Positions 172 through 13,887 of a DNA stretch of 14,178 nucleotides are shown here, piece after piece. The stretch is from assembly GCA_015259305.1 (NCBI GenBank), contig JABZGO010000013.1, positions 4,216 to 18,393 of the forward strand, written 5' to 3'. Origin of the DNA: Alloprevotella tannerae. GTDB taxonomy: Bacteria; Bacteroidota; Bacteroidia; Bacteroidales; Bacteroidaceae. The notes below the pieces were generated by a model. The model was not told the DNA's origin, ran no database searches, and saw nothing but the letters and a program-made list of their open reading frames with translations. The stretch's first letter is position 1, and each line of letters begins with the position of its first letter. Made by a program: the position numbers and the translations under genes.

Positions 172-1497
172 TTAGTCGACGACCTCTCCTAAAAGCGTGG
201 CCGACGAACTGCCTGTCACGCGAACGCGAATGAATTCGCCGGGATGATGATTGCCGCGGTCGAAGATCACCACCTTGTTCTGCTCCGTGCGTCCGAAGAG
301 TTGATCCCGACTGCGCTTACTCGTGCCTTCAATCAAGACTTCGTAGACCTTACCCTCGCAGCGGCGGTTGGCTTCCGCACTCTTGCGGTTTTGCAGGGCT
401 ATGAGTTCTTCCAAGCGCTCTACCTTTACGGCCTCCGAGATGTCGTCCGGCAAATGCTTGCTCGCGTAGGTGCCCGGGCGCTCACTATATTTGAACATAA
501 AAGCACTGTCGTAGCCCACTTCTTCCATCAAGCTCAAACTCTCTTGATGGTCTTCCGGTGTCTCCGAGCAGTAGCCCACGAAGATGTCAGTCGATAAGCC
601 GCATTCGGGCACTATTCTACGAATGGCGGCCACGCGATCCAGATACCACTCGCGCGTATATTTGCGGTTCATTAATTTCAAAATGCGATTACTACCGCTC
701 TGTACGGGCAGGTGAATGTGCCGACACACGTTAGGTTCTTCCGCGATGACGTGGAGCGTCTCGTCACTCATATCCTTCGGGTGGGGCGTCACGAAGCGAA
801 TGCGCATATCCGGAAAGGCGCGCGCCACGCGGCGGAGCAAGCCGGGGAAGTTTACGGTTTCCGACTGCTCATCTGCCTGCCAACAATAGCTATTGACGTT
901 TTGCCCAAGCAGGGTTACTTCCTTAAAATGTTTGTCGCGCAGGTCGGCCACTTCGCGCAAGATGCTCTCCACATCTCGGCTGCGCTCTCTTCCACGTGTA
1001 TAGGGCACGATACAATAGTGGCAGAAATTGTTGCAACCGCGCATAATGCTCACAAAGCCCGAGAGTTTGCTGCCGCAGACGCGTTCGGGCACGACGTCGC
1101 GGTAAGTTTCGCTCGTCGAGAGTTCGATGTTCATCGCCTTGTGTCCTGTTTCCGCTTGCGCGATCAAGTCCGGCAAACTCAGATAAGCGTCGGGACCGGC
1201 CACGAGGTCGGCGTGATGATCGTGGAGGAGGCCTTCTTTTACGCGTTCGGCCATACAGCCCAAGACGCCGATAATCAGTCGGCGCCCGTGCTTGCGGAGC
1301 GCGTGGAGCGCGTCGAGGCGGTGAATGATGCGCTGCTCTGCATTGTCGCGCACACTGCAAGTATTGAGAAATACGGCGTCAGCTTCGTCGAGGTTCTCCG
1401 TAGGCTCGTAGCCCGCCATTTTCATGACGCTCGCCACGACCTCGCTATCGGCCACGTTCATCTGGCAACCATATGTTTCTATCAGAAGATGCTTCAT
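172..1497 (-). CDS. miaB: tRNA-2-methylthio-N6-dimethylallyladenosine synthase MiaB
   Basis: This cytoplasmic radical-SAM methylthiotransferase adds the 2-methylthio group to i6A37 of tRNAs that read codons starting with U. The 441-residue length is normal for the family. The N-terminal UPF0004 domain has its three cluster-binding cysteines at C11 (TYGCQMN), C47 (LNTCSVRDNA) and C81 (GVLGCMAER). The radical-SAM motif CNNFCHYC supplies C155, C159 and C162, followed by IVPYTRGRERSR, which is diagnostic for the MiaB branch. The last 65 or so residues form the TRAM RNA-binding domain. The ATG start is supported by conserved residues beginning almost at once (LIETYGCQMN) and by a TAnnTTTG promoter element about 20 bases upstream. 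It appears monocistronic: the next gene to its left lies outside the window, and the gene to its right is divergent. Long open frames on the opposite strand here are composition artefacts. Confidence 0.97.
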   Translation of the reverse strand: MKHLLIETYGCQMNVADSEVVASVMKMAGYEPTENLDEADAVFLNTCSVRDNAEQRIIHRLDALHALRKHGRRLIIGVLGCMAERVKEGLLHDHHADLVAGPDAYLSLPDLIAQAETGHKAMNIELSTSETYRDVVPERVCGSKLSGFVSIMRGCNNFCHYCIVPYTRGRERSRDVESILREVADLRDKHFKEVTLLGQNVNSYCWQADEQSETVNFPGLLRRVARAFPDMRIRFVTPHPKDMSDETLHVIAEEPNVCRHIHLPVQSGSNRILKLMNRKYTREWYLDRVAAIRRIVPECGLSTDIFVGYCSETPEDHQESLSLMEEVGYDSAFMFKYSERPGTYASKHLPDDISEAVKVERLEELIALQNRKSAEANRRCEGKVYEVLIEGTSKRSRDQLFGRTEQNKVVIFDRGNHHPGEFIRVRVTGSSSATLLGEVVD

Positions 1498-2179: not shown

Positions 2180-2578
2180 ATGCTGAAGTATAAATTAGTG
2201 AGCCGCGCGAACCCGCGCAAGCGAAATGAAAAACAATTTTACGCCCAACTGACCGGCGTGCAAACCATCAAGCGTCCCGACTTCCTGAGTCTGCTCGAAA
2301 AGCGCTCGTCTATGTCCTCGGCCGACGTAAAAAGCTTCCTCGACGCCCTTGAGTTTGAACTGATGCACCGCTTGGCCAACGGCATAAGCATTCGCCTGGG
2401 CGACCTCGGTTCTTTTCGCGCCACGATCCGAAGCGTCGGCGCAGTGACCAAAAAGAATTATGACCAGCGAAGGTACATCAAAGGCGTCAACGTGCGCTTC
2501 CGCCCATCGGCTAAATGGATGCGCGAGAAGAGCAAGACCGGCGAACTCATCAGCTTTGAAACGGTGGGCAAGGCTTAA
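2180..2578 (+). CDS. HU-like DNA-binding protein, first paralogue
   Basis: This 132-residue protein is a member of the HU/IHF superfamily, probably the Bacteroidales form with an N-terminal extension (HU-HIG-like). Residues 1-27 are the extension (KLVSRANPRKRNEKQFYAQL). Residues from about 28 to 85 are the helical dimerisation part, with the family pattern SADVKSFLDALE and then the turn IRLGDLGSFRATIRS. The basic stretch that follows (VTKKNYDQRRYIKGVNVRF) matches the DNA-embracing arms. Like canonical HU it should bind DNA with little sequence specificity as a dimer. The ATG start is supported by alignment with the next gene, which begins the same way. It is the first gene of the same-strand block, 80 bases from its paralogue. 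Relatives commonly precede phage-type amidase or muramidase genes in Bacteroidales. A regulatory rather than architectural role is possible. Confidence 0.88.
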   Translation: MLKYKLVSRANPRKRNEKQFYAQLTGVQTIKRPDFLSLLEKRSSMSSADVKSFLDALEFELMHRLANGISIRLGDLGSFRATIRSVGAVTKKNYDQRRYIKGVNVRFRPSAKWMREKSKTGELISFETVGKA

Positions 2579-2658
2579 CGCTAACCAACGCTCGCGGCGT
2601 GCTGAAGAGTGGGCGCCGCTCATTAACAACTTAAATCTGTAAAATAACATTGAAGATT

Positions 2659-3084
2659 ATGCTTTATTATTTAGTATCACGTAGAAATCCGCTGAAGCGG
2701 GAAGAAATAAAATGGTATGCGCAGCCCGTGCGGGTAAGACCGATCGAACTGCAAACTTTGGCTACGGACATCGAAAGCCGCACGACGCTGAGCCGCGCTG
2801 ACGTAAAGGGCTTGCTCGATGCGGTGGAGCACGAACTCATCGCACAATTGGCGGCCGGAAACCGCGTGGCGCTGGGCGATTTGGGCGCTTTCAAGCTCAA
2901 GATCCGCAGCAGAGGCGAAAAGGAAATGAAGAAATTCTCGCCGAAAAACATCCTCGGCACGCGCGTTGTCTTTCGTTGCAGCACGAAGTTGCGCCACTAC
3001 TTTTCGCTGCAAGGCGGCAGTGTGCGCCTGATGCAGGTAAAGAGCGAAAAGGACCAGACGCCCGCACCGAAAAGCGGACAATAA
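2659..3084 (+). CDS. HU-like DNA-binding protein, second paralogue
   Basis: This 141-residue protein is clearly a tandem paralogue of the gene before it. Shared elements are LVSRxNPxKRxE near the N-terminus, SxADVKxxLDAxExEL in the helical part and LGDLGxFxxxIRSxG at the strand turn. The two diverge in the arm and tail. Here the tail runs on for about 20 residues rich in Lys, Gln and Ser (VKSEKDQTPAPKSG). An in-frame TTG nine bases upstream is possible, but the ATG is preferred because it aligns exactly with the start of the first paralogue. Divergence between the copies suggests they may form a heterodimer, as IHF alpha and beta do, or bind different sites; that is inference. A strong hairpin follows before the next gene. 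Confidence 0.87.
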   Translation: MLYYLVSRRNPLKREEIKWYAQPVRVRPIELQTLATDIESRTTLSRADVKGLLDAVEHELIAQLAAGNRVALGDLGAFKLKIRSRGEKEMKKFSPKNILGTRVVFRCSTKLRHYFSLQGGSVRLMQVKSEKDQTPAPKSGQ

Positions 3085-3103
3085 TCACTCCAATCTCTAT
3101 GCT

Positions 3104-3131
3104 CGCCCTCCGGTATCGCAGCCGGAGGGCG
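3104..3131 (+). promoter_or_regulatory. Perfect 10-bp hairpin between the second HU-like gene and the holin-like gene
   Basis: CGCCCTCCGG (3104-3113) pairs with CCGGAGGGCG (3122-3131) across an 8-base loop. It starts 19 bases after the HU-like stop and ends 41 bases before the next ATG. No T run follows directly, the first being TTTTT at 3151-3155, so it is not a standard intrinsic terminator. It may be an attenuator or processing site that sets different levels for the DNA-binding and membrane-active halves of the block. Confidence 0.6.
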
Positions 3132-3152
3132 GGTAAACTAACCGACATCGTT

Positions 3153-3180
3153 TTTATCTAAACCTTACAACAATGAAACA
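3153..3180 (+). repeat. Translation leader, copy 1 (before the holin-like gene)
   Basis: TTTATCTAAACCTTACAACA leads straight into the ATGAAACA start of the holin-like gene. An almost identical stretch, TTTATCTAACCTTAAA then ATGAAACA, precedes the muramidase gene at 3436-3458. Neither copy has a Shine-Dalgarno sequence. The AT-rich, unstructured leader is typical of Bacteroidota initiation regions, but the shared wording is closer than expected by chance and suggests a duplicated or selected leader. Confidence 0.55.
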
Positions 3181-3415
3181 TCAACCTTCTACAAACGCTA
3201 ACCGAAAATCGCGCTCGCGCGGCGAAACGATCTCTGCTTTCGTCTTGATCTCGGCCGGCATCTTGCTGGCTGTGGCGGGCTTCATCACGCCGCCACTGGG
3301 CGAAATCTCCGACTCGGTCTTGTGGTTTTTCGCGCAGTGTCTGCTCTATGCGGGTAGCGTGTTCGGCTTGCGGGCCTACGTCGATCGGAAGTTGGCCGAC
3401 GTGCTGAAAGATTAA
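3173..3415 (+). CDS. Two-helix membrane protein, holin-like
   Basis: This 80-residue protein is predicted to sit in the inner membrane. Residues 1-19 are basic and polar. A first membrane segment spans about 20-38 (SAFVLISAGILLAVAGF). A short loop TPPLGEISDS follows, then a second segment at about 48-66 (VLWFFAQCLLYAGSVFGL) and a charged tail. The basic N-terminus and charged tail suggest both ends are cytoplasmic, the layout of a class II holin. The loop and second segment (PPLGEISDSVLWFFAQ) resemble small membrane proteins next to lysin genes in Bacteroidales prophages, from memory of the family. It lies 50 bases before a muramidase without signal peptide, which would need a holin or similar pore to reach the wall. 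The sequence itself does not prove pore formation, and an antiholin or structural role is possible. Confidence 0.8.
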   Translation: MKHQPSTNANRKSRSRGETISAFVLISAGILLAVAGFITPPLGEISDSVLWFFAQCLLYAGSVFGLRAYVDRKLADVLKD

Positions 3416-3435
3416 GTCGCAAGCGGCAAGTTTAC

Positions 3436-3458
3436 TTTATCTAACCTTAAAATGAAAC
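3436..3458 (+). repeat. Translation leader, copy 2, with an extra ATG
   Basis: This is the second copy of the leader, TTTATCTAACCTTAAAATGAAA. Its own ATG at 3452 opens a 16-codon frame (MKQQLWQNLHFLRPDS, stop 3500-3502) that overlaps the muramidase start in another frame. The muramidase itself starts 14 bases further on at 3466. This could be a leftover start or an overlapping upstream reading frame that limits muramidase synthesis. Confidence 0.4.
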
Positions 3459-3465
3459 AACAATT

Positions 3466-3996
3466 ATGGCAGAATTTGCACTTTTTGCGCCCCGACTCCT
3501 GAAGTGGGAGCGGGGCTTTTCCTTCGACGCAGTCGATAGCGGGGGCGCTACGAAAGATGGCGTGACGCTACGCACTTTTGCGGCTTATTGCCGAAAAAAA
3601 CATTGGCCCGAACCGGGCATCGATCAGCTCTTGGCGCTCACGGCGCTGCAATGGACGGAGATTATGCGCGATTATTGGGATCGCTGTCGGGCCGACAATT
3701 GGCGGGATCAGCGCTTGGCCGACTTTGTGGTCGATTGGTATGTCAATGCGGGCCGACCGGCAATTCGCGCACTGCAATGGGCGGCCCACGTTCAGGCGGA
3801 CGGCATCGTGGGGAGCAAGACGCTGCGCGCAGTGAATAAGGCGCCAAGCGTCAAACTCCTGCAAACGTTGCTCGTGGCGCGAAAGGCGTTTTACATCAAC
3901 TTGGTGCGCCGACGGCCGGACCGGCGCCGCTTCTTGCGCGGCTGGCTGAACCGAACAGAAGATATGGCGCGCGAACCGAGAAAGGAGGAGGCATGA
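3466..3996 (+). CDS. GH108-type peptidoglycan hydrolase (endolysin-like muramidase)
   Basis: This 176-residue protein is predicted to cleave the glycan strands of peptidoglycan. The N-terminal catalytic region carries the GH108 signature in modified form: LKWERGFSFDAVDSGGATKDGVT, with E15 in the place of the catalytic glutamate. The usual EGG is ERG here. The central region has helices with DYWDRCRADNW (69-79) and DFVVDWYVNAG (86-96). The C-terminal part resembles the peptidoglycan-binding half of the family (VQADGIVGSKTLRAVN, 109-124) and ends in a very basic tail (RRRPDRRRFLRGW). No signal peptide is visible, so export must depend on membrane disruption, consistent with the holin-like gene 50 bases upstream. 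The stop codon overlaps the start of the next gene in ATGA, indicating translational coupling. Family assignment is good; the activity of this ERG variant is untested. Confidence 0.85.
   Translation: MAEFALFAPRLLKWERGFSFDAVDSGGATKDGVTLRTFAAYCRKKHWPEPGIDQLLALTALQWTEIMRDYWDRCRADNWRDQRLADFVVDWYVNAGRPAIRALQWAAHVQADGIVGSKTLRAVNKAPSVKLLQTLLVARKAFYINLVRRRPDRRRFLRGWLNRTEDMAREPRKEEA
3981..3988 (+). promoter_or_regulatory. Unusually strong Shine-Dalgarno before the spanin-like gene
   Basis: AAAGGAGG stands four bases before the ATG at 3993 and is fully complementary to the usual 16S rRNA 3' end. Other genes in this window start without such a site. It lies inside the last codons of the muramidase (encoding RKEE), so the spacing, the ATGA overlap and this site together point to coupled translation. 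A chance effect of Lys-Glu codons cannot be excluded. Confidence 0.6.
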
Positions 3997-4505
3997 GACA
4001 AAATAGGACTTTTCTATCCAAGGGTATGGGACTTGCGCGCCGCTTGATTGGGCGGCGCCGACGGCCGTTGCGCTTGGGGCATTCGCGGCGAGGAGCGAAA
4101 TGGGCCATCGGCTTGTTGCTCTGCTTAGTGTGCGGAGCTTGCTCGACGCATCGGCGGACGACGGAGGTGCAAATCAAACGTGAGGAGACGAAGGCGGCGC
4201 ACGAGCGCTTGGTTTTCGATTCGATACGCGTCAGAGATACACTCTTGGTGCGCACGGAGCGGGATACGGTGCACGTGGAGCGTCACGTACATTATGAACA
4301 TGCCGTCAGGCAAAGGCTGAGAGATACGCTGGTGGTGATGCGCACGGATACGGTGCGCCTGCAAACGGTCTCCGCACCGCCAAAATCGGCGGGTCGGCGC
4401 TTATCTTCAAGATGGCTGCGCACGATATGGGGCACGGTCATCGCGCTCTTGGCCCTCGGCATTCTGTGGTCTACTTTGCGCTACGCCGTGAGGCGTCCGA
4501 TCTAA
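3993..4505 (+). CDS. Lipoprotein with C-terminal membrane segment, unimolecular-spanin-like
   Basis: This 170-residue protein has an arginine-rich N-region (residues 1-36), then a hydrophobic stretch AIGLLLCLVCGAC, in which C50 would be the lipidated cysteine. Residues 51-125 are polar and repeat a pattern of the type RDTLxVRTERDTVxVE, likely an extended or coiled periplasmic rod. A second hydrophobic segment (144-162, TIWGTVIALLALGILWSTL) is followed by a basic tail (RYAVRRPI). A lipoprotein end in the outer membrane plus a C-terminal inner-membrane anchor is the layout of a unimolecular spanin, which joins the two membranes in the last step of phage lysis. Its position after a holin-like and a muramidase gene fits. 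The signal region is long; the only in-frame downstream ATG is M12. The lipobox (CGAC) is not textbook, so lipidation is probable rather than certain. Confidence 0.78.
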   Translation: MRQNRTFLSKGMGLARRLIGRRRRPLRLGHSRRGAKWAIGLLLCLVCGACSTHRRTTEVQIKREETKAAHERLVFDSIRVRDTLLVRTERDTVHVERHVHYEHAVRQRLRDTLVVMRTDTVRLQTVSAPPKSAGRRLSSRWLRTIWGTVIALLALGILWSTLRYAVRRPI

Positions 4506-4556
4506 GCGCCGCTGAAAGGCTGCAACGAAAAATGCGCCCCGTCTACTTGCTTTTTC

Positions 4557-4598
4557 ATACGACAATTCCCCGACTTGCAGGTCGGGGAATTGTCGTAT
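4557..4598. terminator. Perfect 18-bp hairpin between convergent genes
   Basis: ATACGACAATTCCCCGAC (4557-4574) and GTCGGGGAATTGTCGTAT (4581-4598) pair without mismatch around the 6-base loop TTGCAG. It lies between the end of the plus-strand block and the end of the minus-strand prfB operon, where a bidirectional terminator is expected. Neither side has a good T run: five T stand before it on the plus strand, and none follows on either strand. The length and perfection exceed what is needed for termination, so a mobile hairpin element or an end mark of the inserted block is an alternative. Confidence 0.65.
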
Positions 4599-4665
4599 AA
4601 TGTCACTGCTCCACCGAATAAGTGGGCGGAGTAGGAAAGCAAACAGTCGGGCGCTCCAAGAGCGT

Positions 4666-5133
4666 CTACCAGTTTTTATATGGGTTGCGGCGCAGTTGGG
4701 AATTGTAATAACGGGCTTCACCCGTCACTTCTTGACCCAAGAAATCAGGCTTGAGATAAGGCTCATCGGGCGAATGTAGCTCGATTTCTGCAACAACGAG
4801 GCCTTCATTTTCGCCCAAAAACTCGTCAACTTCGATGGTGTGCTTTCCGTTTGGGATGAGCCAGCGTACTTTCTCAACCAAGCCGGGTTCGCAAAGAAAC
4901 AAAAGCGCTAAGGCTTCGTTCTCGGTAATTTCCTTCTCAAACTCGAAGCGCGAAAGTCCGCCGTCGAGCGATGGGCCTTTGATCGTCAGAAAGCCTCTCT
5001 CACCGCAGAGCCGCACGCGTACCGTCCGGCCGCCACCGCTGCAAATGTAGCCTTGACGAATCGTGTAGTGGGACGTGGAAAAGTCCTTGTAAGGCCCCAC
5101 CACAAGAAACTTGCGTTCAATCTCCTGTGCCAT
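4666..5133 (-). CDS. CYTH-domain triphosphate tunnel metalloenzyme
   Basis: This 155-residue cytoplasmic protein has the CYTH signature EIERKFL at residues 4-10. It also has the alternating charged strands that line the tunnel: TVRVR (37-41), TIKG (50-53), RFEFEKEI (62-69), KVRW (88-91), EVDEF (101-105) and VVAEIEL (113-119). Length and spacing match stand-alone bacterial members such as those that hydrolyse inorganic triphosphate or use thiamine triphosphate. The physiological substrate in Bacteroidales is not settled. The ATG start is two residues before the conserved EIER block and is firm. It is the last gene of a probable operon: the upstream small membrane protein stops three bases before this ATG. 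A metal-dependent phosphohydrolase is more likely than an adenylate cyclase at this size. Confidence 0.92.
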   Translation of the reverse strand: MAQEIERKFLVVGPYKDFSTSHYTIRQGYICSGGGRTVRVRLCGERGFLTIKGPSLDGGLSRFEFEKEITENEALALLFLCEPGLVEKVRWLIPNGKHTIEVDEFLGENEGLVVAEIELHSPDEPYLKPDFLGQEVTGEARYYNSQLRRNPYKNW

Positions 5134-5316: not shown

Positions 5317-6432
5317 TTATGCTTCGCCGCCCCCATTTTCCATGAGGTAGGCCTTAATAAAGCCATCAAGTTTGCCATCCATCACGCCGTTGACGTCGCT
5401 TGTCTGAAAGTTAGTGCGGTGATCTTTCACGCGGCGGTCGTCAAAGACGTAGCTGCGGATCTGGCTGCCCCATTCGATCTTCTTCTTTCCCGCCTCGATC
5501 TTGGCTTGGGCAGCCCGACGCTTCTGCAAAGCGCGGTCGTATAGTTGAGAGCGCAGCAAGCGCATCGCATTTTCGCGGTTTTCCAATTGCTTTCTGCTCT
5601 CCGTGTTTTCGATAAGAATCTCTTCGGTCTCTCCGGTATCGGGGTCGGTGTATTGATATCGGAGGCGCACGCCCGTTTCGACCTTGTTCACGTTCTGGCC
5701 GCCCGCGCCGCCAGAGCGGAATAAATCCCAACTGATTTTAGATGGGTCAACGTAAACTTCAATATTGTCATCGACGAGCGGAGTCACAAAAACGCTGGCA
5801 AAAGACGTCATACGCTTGCCTTGCGCATTGTAGGGCGAGACGCGCACCAAGCGATGCACGCCGTTTTCACTCTTGAGATAACCGTAGGCATAGTCGCCCT
5901 CGATTTCGATTGTCACGGTCTTGATGCCCGCTTCGTCGCCGTCCTGCAAGTTAGAAATGCGCGTCTTATAGCCTTGCGCCTCAGCATAGCGCAAATACAT
6001 ACGCATCAGCATCGAAGCCCAATCCTGACTTTCCGTTCCGCCGGCGCCGGAGTTGATTTTCAAGACCGCGTCCATCGAATCCTCTTCGCCGCGGAGCATA
6101 TTTCTGAGTTCGAGCGCTTCGATGGCATCGATCGCCTTTTGGTAATCGGCATCTACTTCCTCTTCCGTGACCAACTCATCCTTATAAAATTCAAAGGCCG
6201 TCTCGAGTTCGCCGACCAAAAGGCAAACATCGTTGTAGTCCGTCACCCATTTTTCAATACCTTTCACCTTTTTCATCTGCTCTTCAGCGCGCTTCGGGTC
6301 ATCCCAGAAGTCGGGCGCTTGCGTGCGGAGTTGTTCTTCTTCCAGTTCAACCCGTTTAGCGTCGATGTCCAAGTATTTATGTAATGCTTCAGCGCGCGTC
6401 TGCACGTCCTTCAATTGATCAGCTGTAATCAT
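5317..6432 (-). CDS. prfB: Peptide chain release factor 2
   Basis: RF2 recognises UGA and UAA stop codons in the ribosomal A site and triggers peptide release. The 371-residue length is normal. The GGQ motif that contacts the peptidyl-transferase centre is at 244-246 (GGAGGQNVN). The stop-codon-reading tripeptide is SPY at 199-201 (RVSPYNAQGKRMTSF), where E. coli RF2 has SPF. The N-terminal helical domain starts MITADQLKDVQ. The usual programmed +1 frameshift is absent: the equivalent codons 20-22 are TAC TTG GAC in one frame, giving YLD with no UGA. Autoregulation by frameshifting is therefore not expected. It is the first gene of a probable operon with the small membrane protein and the CYTH gene. 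No exact Bacteroidota promoter was seen in the 120 bases upstream. Confidence 0.97.
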   Translation of the reverse strand: MITADQLKDVQTRAEALHKYLDIDAKRVELEEEQLRTQAPDFWDDPKRAEEQMKKVKGIEKWVTDYNDVCLLVGELETAFEFYKDELVTEEEVDADYQKAIDAIEALELRNMLRGEEDSMDAVLKINSGAGGTESQDWASMLMRMYLRYAEAQGYKTRISNLQDGDEAGIKTVTIEIEGDYAYGYLKSENGVHRLVRVSPYNAQGKRMTSFASVFVTPLVDDNIEVYVDPSKISWDLFRSGGAGGQNVNKVETGVRLRYQYTDPDTGETEEILIENTESRKQLENRENAMRLLRSQLYDRALQKRRAAQAKIEAGKKKIEWGSQIRSYVFDDRRVKDHRTNFQTSDVNGVMDGKLDGFIKAYLMENGGGEA

Positions 6433-9309: not shown

Positions 9310-9342
9310 TTAACTTTTAACCCATTTAATTTTACCTTGATC

Positions 9343-12300
9343 ATGACTAAACGACTATCAAACCTTCGGATGGGAGCCATAGCAGCTTGCTTGGCCTTCT
9401 CCGGACAAGCGATGTCACAAGTCGCCACGACGCAGATGCAGGTGCATCCGCGCGGCGCGACTGAACAGCAGTCGAGAGAGCGCATCGACGTTCGCGCGCT
9501 CTACCCGAACATTGCCGGAATGGGAGCGCGCTATGCGCAGCCCGACCGCGTACAGACAGTGCCTCAAACCCTAAGCAAGCCGGCGGCAAAAGCGCAAAAG
9601 CGCTCCGTACCCGTCAACTTCTTAGCGCCTCCGCCACCTACAAATCTGTGGGGTAATATGGTGAAGAGCAAAGCCTGGACGGCAGGCGATCAGTATGGCT
9701 ACTACTCATTTTCTACAGCGGCGCCCATCACGACCTTCAACGTCTTGGGCAAAAACCAGAAAATGGTGGCCGACGGCGGTAGCGTAATCTACGACGGCGT
9801 GTTGCACCTCTTCTATTTAGACACGTCCATGGCGCTCTTTGGCGGCGAGGTGAAAGCCTACCATATGCAGTTTGACCCCGAAACGTGGGAACAAGTGGCC
9901 GAGCCGATGCAGGTAAGTTTGGACCTTACTACATCCGACTTTGCGCAAGATCAAGCCACAGGCACGGTCTACGGACAATTCTACAACTCAACTACGAACC
10001 AGCGCGAACTGGGCGTGATCGATTTGGAGAATAACACGCGCACGACGTTTGCTACGACAGATAAGGCTTACGTCACAATGGGCTTTTCGAGCGATGGTTA
10101 CTTATATGGTATCGCTACAGATGGGAACTTATATAAAATAGATAAGACAAACGGCGCGGAAACGCTCGTCGGCGAAACCGGCGTCAGACTCCTGAACGAT
10201 AAAGATTTGTTCTGGAACCAAAGCGGCGAAATCGATCAGGAGACAAATACGTTCTACTGGGCCGGCGTCGACTACACGCAGCACTCAGCCTTGTACACGG
10301 TAGACCTCTCTACGGGTGCGGCAACGAAAATTTCCGAGTTCCCCAACAACGAGACGTTCTTGGGCATTTTATTGCCGAAAGCCATGGTGGCAGGCAACGC
10401 TCCGGCGGCAGCAGAACAGCTGACGGCAGCGTTTAGCGGCGGCTCGCTCACGGGCAGCGTGAAGTTCAAAGTCCCGACAAAGACTTACAGCGGCGGCACA
10501 TTGAACGGCGCAGTGACTTACACCGTAACGCAGGAAAAAAATGTCTTGGCTACGGGTACGGCACAGCCGGGTGAGGAAGTCACAGCCAACGTAACAATTC
10601 CCGAAGAAGGATTGGCACGACTCGCCGTAAGACTCAAAAACAGCGCAGGAAAGAGTAAATATACGCGCTGCGAACAATGGGTGGGCTACGATGAACCCCT
10701 GCCGGCACAAAACGTGAAACTCGAAATCAACAACGAGACCGGCGTAGCAAATCTTACGTGGGACGCACCGACAAGCACCGTGCACAATGGCTATCTCGGC
10801 GCATTGTCCTACGACGTCGTACGCTACCCCGATAAGGTTAAGGTCCTCACGAAAGGAACCGACACCCACTTCACGGAAACCTTAACAAAGAAGGGCGTAG
10901 TTTACTATTCGTATGGCGTCACGGTAAACAACGACAAGCAAGTTAGCCAACAAAAGAATTCTAACGGCGCTATTTTGGGCGACTCCGTCGGACTGCCTTA
11001 CTTGGAAGAGTTTAAGACGCCCGCAGCGCTCAACATTTTTAAAATTATCGACGCAAATAACGACGGAAATACTTGGGAGTATAATAAATACGCCAACTGG
11101 GATCCGGGCACAACAGGACAATCGGTTACGTATCACTATAGCGAAACCAACGATGGCGACGACTGGTTGATGACGCCCCCGATTAGCTTGAAGCAAAACT
11201 TCCTCTACCATTTCTCCTTCAAGACAAAATCGCGCGACGCCAAATACAAAGAGCGTTTAGAAGTGAAATTCGGAAAGGGCGACAAGGTAGAAGATATGAC
11301 AGGCGAACTCCTGGCGCCGACAGACGTAGCTTCAAAAGAGTATATTACGTATGAAAAATACTTCTCTGTAGACGCCGACGGCGCCTATCGCATCGGCTTC
11401 CACGCGCTAAGCCCCAAAAACCAGTTCTTCCTTTACGTTGATAGCCTCAGCGTGGAACAAGGTATCTCGTTTAGTGCGCCTGACACCGTGCAAAACCTAA
11501 CGATCACGCCCGATCCGCAAGGCACCAACAAAGCTACGATAACTTTCACGACGCCGACGCTTGACATCGCCGGCAACGCACTGTCCTTCCTCACGCGCCT
11601 TACAGTCATTCGCGAAGGCAAAGGCGTCATCAAGGAAGTAGATTACCCCAAACGCGGGAAGCAGTTTACCATCGAGGACGAAGTAGAAAACACGGGTCAC
11701 GTCAAATACACCGTCTACTGTACCTTTAGAGATTTCGACGGCCGCAAGCTTACGAAAAACGCCTACATAGGTTTAGATACGCCTGAGCCTCCCCAGAACG
11801 GCCGACTCACAGATTTGAACAACAGCATCAAGATCGATTGGGAGCCGGTAGGACGTCGAGGCAAGCACGGCGGCATCGTAGTCCCCGAAAGAGTAAGCTA
11901 CCAAGTTTACAACATCGTTTACGATCCCCGAACCGGCAATCCGAGCCCCGAAATCTTGGATGATACCCCCAACACGACTTATAGCGTGACTCGCAACACG
12001 CAAGAAGGCAAACAAGAGTTCGTTCTCTACGCCCTTTCAGCCACAAACGACATCGGCACGAGTACACTTGTATCCACAAGCGGCCTTGTTGTCGGCGAGC
12101 CCTACACGTTACCGATCGAAGAATCCTTAGCCGGATCTCGCATGAACCTATTATGGTGGAGCGAGCACGTAGGTAAAACGACTATCGACATTACCAACGA
12201 CCGCCCCTACGATAATGACGGCGGCGACTTCTGCTTCAACGCCAAGGCAGTCGGAGATGAAGCCCGCATGAACTCCGGAAAAATCTCCTTAAATGGTGCG

Positions 12301-13887
12301 AAGCACCCACGAATCGCCTTCTACCACTACTCTACGCCCGGAAAACCCATCAAGTTGCAAGTAGATGTGCGCAAGCCCGACAACACATTGACCACCGTCG
12401 GCGAGTTTGACTACGCCACATTCTCAGGCCAGAGAGGCTGGCAGCTGATGGAGTGCGACCTCGACGTAACAAAGTTCGCCAACGAGCCATACATCCAATT
12501 CAGCATCCACGCTAAGGCCGGCGAAGCCAAAGTGCCACTCTGGATCGACAAGATCTCGATGCGCGACGTATTGGAAAGCGATTTAGCAGCAGCTATTTCT
12601 ACACCGACAATTATGACTAAGGGCGACACAATTCGCACTTCCGTTCGCGTGAACAACAGAGGCTTGAAGCCCATCTCCGATTACAAAGTACGACTCACCG
12701 CCGGCGGCGAACTCGTAAAAGAAGCGATAGCAACACAAGCCCTCCAACCGGGCCAAGCGGCCAACTTCGAGTTCGACTACAAGGCTAGCGCAATCAACGA
12801 AGATAGCACAGTGACGCTCAAGGCTGAAGCCGTATACGAGGCAGATCAGAATAAAGAAGACAACACCGCCGAAACCACCCTACGATTGAAGAATTCCGAC
12901 TTACCAAAACCGGAAAACGTCATTGCACAGGCCAAAGGCGGAAAGAGCGTACAGCTCAAATGGGCAGCACCCTCTATAACGTCAGAGACCGTCACTGAAA
13001 ACTTCGAAGACTACTCTCCGTGGTCGATCGACACCTTTGGCGATTGGGCTTCAATAGATGGAGATAAAGGCAACAACGGCGGCTTCTGGAAGGCTCACCC
13101 CTACAAACACCAAGGCACACCCTTCGCTTTCATCGCCTTCAACCCCGAAAACCTCTTCGCAGGTTGCATTGCGAGCAACCCGGGCCTTAAACCACACTCC
13201 GGCGACCAGTTCCTCGCAGCCGTATTCTCCGTACAACCAAGCGCAAGCAACAAGTTTGTCGATGCCGACAACTGGTTGATCAGCCCCTTGCTCTCCGGCG
13301 AGGCACAAAAGATCGACTTCTGGGCCAACAACTACAAGGCCGGCACACAAGACTTCACGGAAAACGTCGAGATCCTCTACTCTACGACCGGACGCAATCA
13401 GAGCGACTTCCAAAAAGTAGGCAATACACACCTCATTAGTGGCGGCGAATTCCAAAATATCTCAGCCGACCTCCCGAAAGGCGCAAAATATTTTGCAATC
13501 CACCACATTACAGGAAAAGACCAAGTCTGCCTCTTGATGCTCGACGACATCACCTACGTCAAAGGCTATGCGAAGCCTAAGGGCTACAACGTCTATCGCG
13601 ACGGTAAACTCGTGGCAGGCTTAGACGCCGGCACGATGACGCTCGATGACCAAGCCGATACCGACGGCCAACATCGCTATGCCATCACAGCAGTCTATGA
13701 CAACGGCGAGTCGCAACCGGTTTGGATCAGCGTAACCACCGCGCTGCAACTCATCGAATCGCTTGCCGGCAAGCAAGTCGACATCTACACGATCGATGGC
13801 CGACTCATCGGCAAAGACCTCAACCATCTGCCGCATCTTGAGCGGGGCATTTACGTCATCAATGGTCAAAAAATAGTGATCAAATAA
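9343..13887 (+). CDS. Type IX-secreted multidomain surface protein with FN3 and cleaved-adhesin-like domains
   Basis: This 1514-residue protein is predicted to be exported and displayed or released at the cell surface. A Sec signal peptide covers residues 1-25 (MTKRLSNLRMGAIAACLAF, cleavage after AMS). About 95-345 repeats strands such as YDGVLHLFYLD and NLYKIDKTNGAETLVGETG, suggesting a beta-propeller. FN3-like domains follow at about 452-545, 712-810 and 812-920. Jelly-roll domains of the choice-of-anchor J/cleaved-adhesin type lie at about 545-706 (DDWLMTPPISL), 919-1080 (less typical) and 1215-1406 (DNWLISPLL). The last is inserted into an FN3 domain. A CARDB-like domain lies at 1080-1183 (VRVNNRGLKPISDYKVRL). 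The end, about 1470-1514 (VDIYTIDGRLIG...GIYVINGQKIVIK), is a type A Por sorting domain. No protease or glycosidase motif was found, so binding or adhesion is likelier than catalysis. An in-frame TTG lies six bases upstream; ATG is preferred. Confidence 0.93.
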   Translation: MTKRLSNLRMGAIAACLAFSGQAMSQVATTQMQVHPRGATEQQSRERIDVRALYPNIAGMGARYAQPDRVQTVPQTLSKPAAKAQKRSVPVNFLAPPPPTNLWGNMVKSKAWTAGDQYGYYSFSTAAPITTFNVLGKNQKMVADGGSVIYDGVLHLFYLDTSMALFGGEVKAYHMQFDPETWEQVAEPMQVSLDLTTSDFAQDQATGTVYGQFYNSTTNQRELGVIDLENNTRTTFATTDKAYVTMGFSSDGYLYGIATDGNLYKIDKTNGAETLVGETGVRLLNDKDLFWNQSGEIDQETNTFYWAGVDYTQHSALYTVDLSTGAATKISEFPNNETFLGILLPKAMVAGNAPAAAEQLTAAFSGGSLTGSVKFKVPTKTYSGGTLNGAVTYTVTQEKNVLATGTAQPGEEVTANVTIPEEGLARLAVRLKNSAGKSKYTRCEQWVGYDEPLPAQNVKLEINNETGVANLTWDAPTSTVHNGYLGALSYDVVRYPDKVKVLTKGTDTHFTETLTKKGVVYYSYGVTVNNDKQVSQQKNSNGAILGDSVGLPYLEEFKTPAALNIFKIIDANNDGNTWEYNKYANWDPGTTGQSVTYHYSETNDGDDWLMTPPISLKQNFLYHFSFKTKSRDAKYKERLEVKFGKGDKVEDMTGELLAPTDVASKEYITYEKYFSVDADGAYRIGFHALSPKNQFFLYVDSLSVEQGISFSAPDTVQNLTITPDPQGTNKATITFTTPTLDIAGNALSFLTRLTVIREGKGVIKEVDYPKRGKQFTIEDEVENTGHVKYTVYCTFRDFDGRKLTKNAYIGLDTPEPPQNGRLTDLNNSIKIDWEPVGRRGKHGGIVVPERVSYQVYNIVYDPRTGNPSPEILDDTPNTTYSVTRNTQEGKQEFVLYALSATNDIGTSTLVSTSGLVVGEPYTLPIEESLAGSRMNLLWWSEHVGKTTIDITNDRPYDNDGGDFCFNAKAVGDEARMNSGKISLNGAKHPRIAFYHYSTPGKPIKLQVDVRKPDNTLTTVGEFDYATFSGQRGWQLMECDLDVTKFANEPYIQFSIHAKAGEAKVPLWIDKISMRDVLESDLAAAISTPTIMTKGDTIRTSVRVNNRGLKPISDYKVRLTAGGELVKEAIATQALQPGQAANFEFDYKASAINEDSTVTLKAEAVYEADQNKEDNTAETTLRLKNSDLPKPENVIAQAKGGKSVQLKWAAPSITSETVTENFEDYSPWSIDTFGDWASIDGDKGNNGGFWKAHPYKHQGTPFAFIAFNPENLFAGCIASNPGLKPHSGDQFLAAVFSVQPSASNKFVDADNWLISPLLSGEAQKIDFWANNYKAGTQDFTENVEILYSTTGRNQSDFQKVGNTHLISGGEFQNISADLPKGAKYFAIHHITGKDQVCLLMLDDITYVKGYAKPKGYNVYRDGKLVAGLDAGTMTLDDQADTDGQHRYAITAVYDNGESQPVWISVTTALQLIESLAGKQVDIYTIDGRLIGKDLNHLPHLERGIYVINGQKIVIK

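Follow-up and report, generated by a model that had tools for sequence, protein, structure and literature searches.

We study a stretch of 14,178 nucleotides from the genome of Alloprevotella tannerae (GenBank assembly GCA_015259305.1, contig JABZGO010000013.1, positions 4,216 to 18,393), which we call, at its full length, the window. Between positions 2180 and 4505, on the + strand, the window contains five intact genes, encoding in order two HU-like DNA-binding proteins (HU1 and HU2), a holin-like membrane protein (TM80), a GH108 muramidase and a spanin-like lipoprotein. We conclude that this block is probably a domesticated phage lysis cassette standing behind two HU-like genes. Judged from its sequence, it is likely a phage-derived self-lysis cassette that is maintained by selection and that resembles type 10 secretion loci in some of its parts, with a HU leader that is as yet unexplained. 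The lysis trio belongs to a known kind, namely the phage lysis cassette found outside a phage; the HU leader is the new part.

An earlier note on this DNA, which we call the original prediction, had described the same five genes on one strand, with products of the last three that would cover the envelope layer by layer, from inner membrane through wall to outer membrane; it had also placed the block between miaB and prfB, with no phage structural gene, integrase or repressor visible. These observations hold: the five genes are all there with undisrupted reading frames, the last three have phage lysis genes as relatives and follow the gene order of phages, and both the flanking genes and the lack of visible phage genes are borne out below. 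HU1 (132 residues, positions 2180..2578, + strand) and HU2 (141 residues, 2659..3084, +) belong to the HU-HIG family (Pfam PF18291; E-values 3.5e-24 and 3.3e-26), with scores of 85.7 and 92.2 bits against a cut-off of 26.2. For HU2 we take the ATG at 2659 as the start, where the list of open reading frames (ORFs) has an earlier TTG at 2650. The two HU genes are followed by those of TM80 (80 residues, 3173..3415, +), the muramidase (176 residues, without a signal sequence, 3466..3996, +) and the lipoprotein (170 residues, 3993..4505, +). The intergenic gaps are 80, 88 and 50 nucleotides long, and the muramidase and lipoprotein genes overlap by 4 nucleotides.

The case for a phage origin rests in part on TM80, whose assignment combines its phage relatives, its position and its topology. 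Among annotated phages, 73 records contain a TM80 relative at E up to 0.1, including 56 Bacteroides phages and 12 Porphyromonas phages, and the four Porphyromonas rows inspected are all weak (E 0.003-0.1). An alignment of 23 relatives has a common core around GEISDSVLW. Phage-type relatives match phrog_8278, a family of unknown function, at 1.8e-10 and 5.1e-7, and the window protein matches it at 0.004; neither TM80 nor the lipoprotein reaches a Pfam cut-off. With membrane helices defined by a hydropathy threshold of 1.6, TM80 of the window has one helix above the threshold (residues 20-38) and a second below it, and this second helix lies just above the threshold in the homologues of phages ARB14 and BT638P2. 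We infer that TM80 is a phage lysis-cassette protein, and its position and topology suggest the role of a holin. To our knowledge, no member of the TM80 family has been tested as a holin.

The muramidase matches the Pfam families Glyco_hydro_108 (5.6e-17) and PG_binding_3 (1.6e-16) as well as PHROG 315, annotated ‘endolysin’ (5.5e-31), and it has relatives in 125 phage records, the best 30 of which lie at 39-44% identity. Its residue Glu15, the neighbours of that residue and a GGAT motif are conserved in the four GH108 sequences that we aligned, and its hydropathy profile is free of membrane segments. The best solved relative is PDB 2nr7 (5.5e-28), deposited as ‘Secretion activator protein, putative’. 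The NCBIfam model NF040573, for holin-associated N-acetylmuramidases, gives 62.4 bits, below its curated cut-off of 240. Taken by its domains and conserved residues, the protein appears to carry an intact endolysin catalytic domain. Elsewhere, in genome G046, a lone GH108 gene (L014, positions 9518-10351) stands amid genes that look chromosomal by eye, and it is possibly an orphan muramidase.

The lipoprotein has cysteines only at residues 44, 47 and 50, and a C-terminal membrane helix at residues 144-162. A sequence search returns 39 relatives, all of them close to the window protein. A profile of six lipoproteins encoded 3' of TM80 in prophage-type loci, however, scores 42.5 bits with the window protein and 29.9 bits with its mature part alone, as compared with 16.8 bits for the best of 5000 shuffles. 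Thus, the window lipoprotein is homologous to the prophage lipoproteins, with which it has in common an N-terminal lipoprotein-like signal and the C-terminal helix, that is, the layout of a unimolecular spanin. We aligned 16 lipoproteins, those of the window and of A. tannerae ATCC 51259 together with 14 of the 39 relatives; Cys50 is the same in every one, and the periplasmic core hardly varies. Unimolecular spanins, of which T1 gp11 is the prototype, combine, according to PMC6139136, a lipoprotein signal, a C-terminal membrane helix, the last place in the cassette and a cysteine-free mature part; the last three are found here together with a likely lipoprotein signal, and the likeness is one of layout. 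By its homology to prophage lipoproteins encoded in or near that position, the protein appears to fill the place of the spanin after the endolysin.

Cassettes of comparable order are found in phages and prophages. A scan of IMG/VR with the TM80 alignment yields 37 loci, with a lysin of a profiled type downstream in 22 of the 37 and a lipoprotein with a C-terminal helix in 23. Two near-identical viral contigs (L294 and L295) encode a TM80 homologue (46% identity), a GH108 muramidase (37%) and a 170-residue lipoprotein with a C-terminal helix, in the same order as in the window; the likeness of this lipoprotein is one of layout only, because the six-member profile misses it. The window GH108 sequence itself found no match among the viral contigs, though the TM80 scan gave two contigs with a GH108 gene. 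We opened two phage records, those of the Bacteroides phages ARB14 and BT638P2. In both, the gene directly after that of the TM80 relative encodes an amidase, labelled ‘endolysin’ in BT638P2, and next comes a 188-residue protein with an N-terminal helix; the ARB14 copy of the latter matches strongly a PHROG of unknown function and weakly an Rz-like spanin PHROG (E 0.003). Prophages in genomes of the genus and the family combine TM80 with an amidase or M15 lysin and a lipoprotein with a C-terminal helix, next to genes that match head maturation protease, terminase or tape measure. The window thus shares with the cassettes of ARB14, BT638P2, L294 and L295 a TM80 homologue directly before the endolysin. 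The window block differs in that no phage gene is seen around it and in its two leading HU-HIG genes, since just one of 36 viral loci has a HU gene upstream; in addition, ARB14 and BT638P2 replace GH108 and the lipoprotein by the amidase and the protein with the N-terminal helix.

Neither the window nor 16.5 kb from the corresponding locus of A. tannerae ATCC 51259 (L001; genome copy G001) shows a phage gene; the ORFs of both were read, the marker profiles were run on L001 and integrase was judged by eye. Our genome-wide phage search of A. tannerae consists of two markers: the gene in capsid position of the prophages has no match there and matches all 4 of the genomes picked because they were known to carry it, and the tape-measure family has no match there and matches 1 of 14 control genomes. 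The ‘capsid’ marker of the genus loci is named from its position only, and no family matched it. With no capsid, tail, terminase or integrase gene seen nearby, the block does not appear to lie in an active or recent prophage.

It could still be what is left of an older one. Under this alternative, which we consider unlikely, the lysis module is the slowly decaying remnant of an integrated phage and has no present function. Such an origin would account for three lysis genes that each have phage or prophage homologues and stand in the same order. The HU genes, too, could have arrived with the phage, since a HU gene lies upstream of TM80 in two genus loci with phage markers (L216 and L223) and in one viral contig (L291). 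In all three, this pair is found amid phage head genes, and these loci may be intermediates between phage and stand-alone cassettes.

We compare the window with the locus of ATCC 51259, the closest named genome, which has the same gene order and 94.2% nucleotide identity over 8.9 kb, and whose genome has one GH108 match and one TM80 match. None of the five ORFs is disrupted in either genome. The ratio of nonsynonymous to synonymous substitution rates (dN/dS) is 0.14 for HU1, 0.10 for HU2, 0 for TM80 (9 synonymous and 0 nonsynonymous changes), 0.17 for the muramidase and 0.42 for the lipoprotein; against the neutral expectation, the one-sided p-values, computed from rounded counts, are 4e-4, 5e-6, 4e-6, 3e-5 and 0.007, respectively. 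For the five genes together, we observe 41.75 nonsynonymous changes where 81.6 are expected (p 7e-16). All five genes are under purifying selection in this genome pair, in line with the domesticated module of the original prediction. The block is closed by a near-perfect hairpin of 21 bp (4557..4598; z -5.55 for positions 4506-4610), likely a transcription terminator, and this hairpin is retained in ATCC 51259, where one base pair has been exchanged in a compensatory way and one C-G pair has become U-G. Intact frames, fewer nonsynonymous changes than neutrality predicts in every gene and a closing hairpin preserved by compensation all argue against a decaying remnant, as does the lack of any other phage gene in the two loci; the survival of a complete lysis set and HU alone would be an odd pattern of decay.

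The link between HU and TM80 was examined in the genus, where 58 genomes contain 34 TM80 matches in 26 genomes. The DNA around these matches forms 33 loci, of which our script re-finds 31 (all but L234 and L235); 8 of the 31 have phage markers and 23 do not. A HU-HIG gene lies within 2 kb upstream, on the same strand, in 14 of the 23 loci without markers, as compared with 1 of 36 viral loci and 2 of 11 prophage-type loci. The viral set excludes L280, which has only 90 nucleotides of upstream DNA, and the prophage-type set comprises the eight genus loci with markers together with L132, L134 and L135 from the wider family. At the HU density of A. tannerae, a HU gene is expected upstream by chance in about 1% of loci. 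The Fisher p-values for the 14 of 23 loci are 7.5e-7 against the viral set and 0.03 against the prophage-type set, and both are too small because the loci are related by descent. Several of the genus contigs are short and can hide phage genes, and in L125 the markers miss a large gene that looks tail-like by eye. The combination of HU and a holin-like gene is more than a chance feature of this window, and the original prediction, which had linked HU to lysis genes, is upheld to this extent.

What follows the pair is variable. Among the 14 loci, six encode a known wall hydrolase downstream, namely GH108 in A. tannerae itself, M15 in L121 and an amidase in L217, L219, L221 and L222, and L227 has a DUF5675 gene in that place. 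Like the window, L121 and the four amidase loci have an upstream HU-HIG gene and a downstream phage-type wall hydrolase, without phage markers in the DNA retrieved; unlike it, they use another lysin family, and no spanin-like lipoprotein is found downstream. Only one of the 23 marker-free loci, the A. tannerae one, has a spanin-like gene after TM80, versus 7 of the 8 with markers, and it is also the sole locus of the 23 to hold HU, a holin-like protein, a lysin and a spanin-like protein together. Because of the HU leader and its recurrence with other lysins, we regard the block as a variant beyond the known orphan lysis cassettes. In the wider family, TM80 is matched in 87 of 399 genomes, for which DNA was fetched for the strongest loci only. 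Three of these genomes have several HU-TM80 pairs or a single one with no lysin detected (L122-L124, L126-L130). Of the pairs without a detected lysin, L122, L124 and L126-L129 belong to G088 and G059, several per genome, and L130 to G110.

A second set of loci in the family combines HU with a different small protein, smalltalk (NCBIfam NF033879). In G292 (5.6 Mb), an amidase lies downstream in 7 of the 15 HU loci seen (L242, L243, L253, L255, L258, L260 and L262), and with the same profile in 0 of the 15 seen in G264. The small protein of L262 is confirmed as smalltalk, and the five of the seven G292 smalltalk matches that were listed all adjoin the HU-amidase loci. Smalltalk is matched in 184 of 399 family genomes; in the 30 loci that this search gave, a HU gene lies upstream in 23; 9 of the 23 have a downstream lysin as well, and 3 more have an amidase between HU and smalltalk. 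Smalltalk has no match in the A. tannerae genome G001, and in the window, which was not scanned with it, the block holds no further fitting ORF of at least 60 residues. These loci resemble the window in having a HU-HIG gene, a small membrane-type protein and a wall hydrolase; they differ in that smalltalk (a 29-position model, hypothetical equivalog) is distinct from TM80 and in that an amidase replaces GH108. Smalltalk and a HU protein are listed as rows of an expression table in PMC10434189.

These loci bear on whether lysis is the function at all. HU and TM80 might form the functional core of a non-killing set for wall remodelling or the membrane, with the hydrolase as an accessory. In favour of this stand the pairs for which our profiles detect no downstream lysin, namely half of the 14 HU-TM80 loci, the multi-copy pairs of G088, G059 and G110, and many of the HU-smalltalk pairs. 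The window, however, retains the full trio including the spanin-like protein, which points to lysis, and we hold a non-killing role of the block to be very improbable.

A self-lysis cassette of the kind that we prefer could work as follows. TM80 would accumulate in the inner membrane and open it at a set level; the muramidase, lacking a signal, would then reach the wall and cut it; and the lipoprotein, whose N-terminal lipid would hold it to the outer membrane and whose C-terminal helix to the inner one, would fuse both membranes, so that the cell bursts. By binding DNA, the HU-like proteins would determine when the cassette is expressed or license its expression. The benefit would fall to the population, either through the release of cytoplasmic cargo or through suicide upon phage attack. 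The release of DNA, which the original prediction had proposed, is a possible purpose as well.

The first of these benefits is that of a type 10 secretion locus, in which the regulated lysis of a few cells frees co-regulated cytoplasmic cargo. PMC10847048 treats the use by bacteria of orphan phage lysis cassettes in Yersinia and Serratia, and it describes the type 10 loci (ChiWXYZ of Serratia, and Yersinia entomophaga) as clusters of holin, endolysin and spanin outside a phage. The block fits this description in having a phage-like set of the three on a bacterial chromosome without a phage. It differs in its HU-HIG leader and in having just one spanin-like lipoprotein, as against the i-spanin and o-spanin pair of Serratia. 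No cargo gene or dedicated regulator is apparent among those neighbours that family searches name (miaB, a CYTH gene and prfB). As a purpose of the cassette, type 10 secretion is possible but somewhat unlikely.

A suicide or defence cassette, in which the HU-like proteins would sense invading DNA or a disturbed nucleoid and trigger early lysis that stops the spread of a phage, seems to us less probable again. HU-HIG genes are indeed numerous (30 matches in A. tannerae, and 29 and 16 in two other family genomes), and they recur beside small membrane proteins and wall hydrolases. Burroughs and colleagues (2017) reportedly proposed that HU expansions in Bacteroidetes counter invading elements. 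A PADLOC scan, however, gives no match for the five block genes or for two amidases, except for a weak match of HU2 to BrxC (E 0.007), and it thus gives no sign of a known defence system in the block.

Several observations weigh against the reading of the block as a selected self-lysis cassette. The full five-gene block is found only in the A. tannerae group: a scan of named close relatives for orthologues of the whole block gives the ATCC 51259 locus only, and the test of conservation is therefore confined to that group, where the test of selection consists of a single genome pair. The lipoprotein and the muramidase have dN/dS values far above those of the flanking genes prfB (0.01) and miaB (0.02; the CYTH gene has 0.12). 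One of the 14 lipoprotein relatives taken (P0155) appears frameshifted at its C-terminus, which, together with the fast change of this gene and the narrow distribution of the block, is also what a prophage remnant would lead us to expect. The lipobox, CGAC, is off consensus at -3, in which it differs from unimolecular spanins, and the lipid signal is for this reason likely rather than certain; the structure model of the lipoprotein is poor, with a mean predicted local distance difference test (pLDDT) score of 53. In the genus, 9 of the 23 loci without markers have no same-strand HU gene upstream of TM80 (L133 has HU downstream, and L138 and L214 have two HU genes on the opposite strand, at a distance of about 2 kb), our profiles detect no downstream lysin in 7 of the 14 HU-TM80 loci, which a pure lysis role does not explain, and some of the same loci supplied the proteins from which the profiles for HU, lysins and phage markers were made. 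The gap between HU2 and TM80, finally, contains a strong hairpin (3100..3135, + strand; fold of the gap RNA -31.5 kcal/mol, z -6.0), possibly a terminator or attenuator, whose stem is unchanged in ATCC 51259 except for the loop-closing pair, which is lost there. Because of this hairpin, transcription may be split between the two HU genes and the three genes after them, and co-transcription of the block is uncertain.

In search of an empty site, we read 30 of the 58 miaB loci of the genus, including that of A. tannerae, and since none of the 29 others has the same neighbourhood, no empty site can be demonstrated. The domestication proposed by the original prediction is thus supported by phage-type genes, by purifying selection and by surroundings in which no phage gene was seen, and is weakened by the restriction of the block to the A. 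tannerae group; the HU-TM80 pairing recurs without phage markers, and the full five-gene order was found in that group only. The conditions under which the original prediction was to be refuted do not apply: the block occurs outside prophages, and lysis families include relatives of both its holin-like and its lipoprotein gene.

One may go further and suppose that HU-led lysis cassettes form a widespread, undescribed system of the Bacteroidales, in which HU senses the state of the DNA, be it phage invasion, damage or late growth, and accordingly permits a holin-like protein of phage origin and a wall hydrolase to act, so that some of the cells lyse deliberately; the most complete form would be the five-gene block found in A. 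tannerae and its group, with its own spanin. We put this forward tentatively, as a rather unlikely generalization. Our search found no paper that describes, by title or abstract, HU-led holin or amidase cassettes in Bacteroidales, in a coverage outside of which most of the subscription literature falls.

Several further features concern the HU genes and the DNA upstream of TM80. In the A. tannerae genome G001 (2.6 Mb), 29 of the 30 HU-HIG matches exceed the cut-off, and 14 distinct, near-identical solo HU-HIG genes (MIKFVIRAKKNPLK...) are scattered in repeat-rich intergenic DNA, for example in L142 (2950-3360), L146 and L150, with no adjoining lysin as judged by eye. A derivation of HU1 and HU2 from these dispersed copies is unsupported: a tree separates them and leaves the exact branch position ambiguous. 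Long hairpins upstream of TM80, between HU and TM80 as at 3100-3135 of the window, are also seen in L224, L225 and L229, and they could be terminators, attenuators or targets of HU. The genes upstream of TM80 or HU in L138, L214, L133, L221, L228, L269 and L270 look replication-related by eye; those scanned give DnaB (L270) as the sole replication name, DUF6291 in L228 and DUF6633 in L133, and the rest have no Pfam match.

The block is flanked on one side by miaB (172..1497, - strand; NCBIfam TIGR01574, 484.9 bits) and on the other by a gene for a CYTH-domain protein (4666..5133, -; Pfam CYTH 1.2e-10), which sits between the block and a prfB-type peptide chain release factor gene (5317..6432, -; Pfam PCRF 4.1e-53, RF-1 1.1e-30). 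Base composition, examined for signs of recent transfer, is 54-60% G+C in the block as compared with 52-56% in the flanking genes. Neither a tRNA nor an Rfam family is found in the window. Between miaB and HU1, at 1666-1770, lie about 4-5 copies of a 21-nucleotide repeat (TCGTTTGGCGGCAGCAAACCA type), and at 9337-13887 the window encodes a protein of 1516 residues with Cleaved_Adhesin, DUF4394 and CARDB domains.

If the preferred reading is true, a selected, HU-led cassette belonging to a recurring set would be a candidate programmed-lysis system for the Bacteroidales. Two questions would then become directly testable: the role of the many HU-HIG proteins, and the reason why so many family genomes retain HU-smalltalk loci, whether an amidase accompanies them or not.

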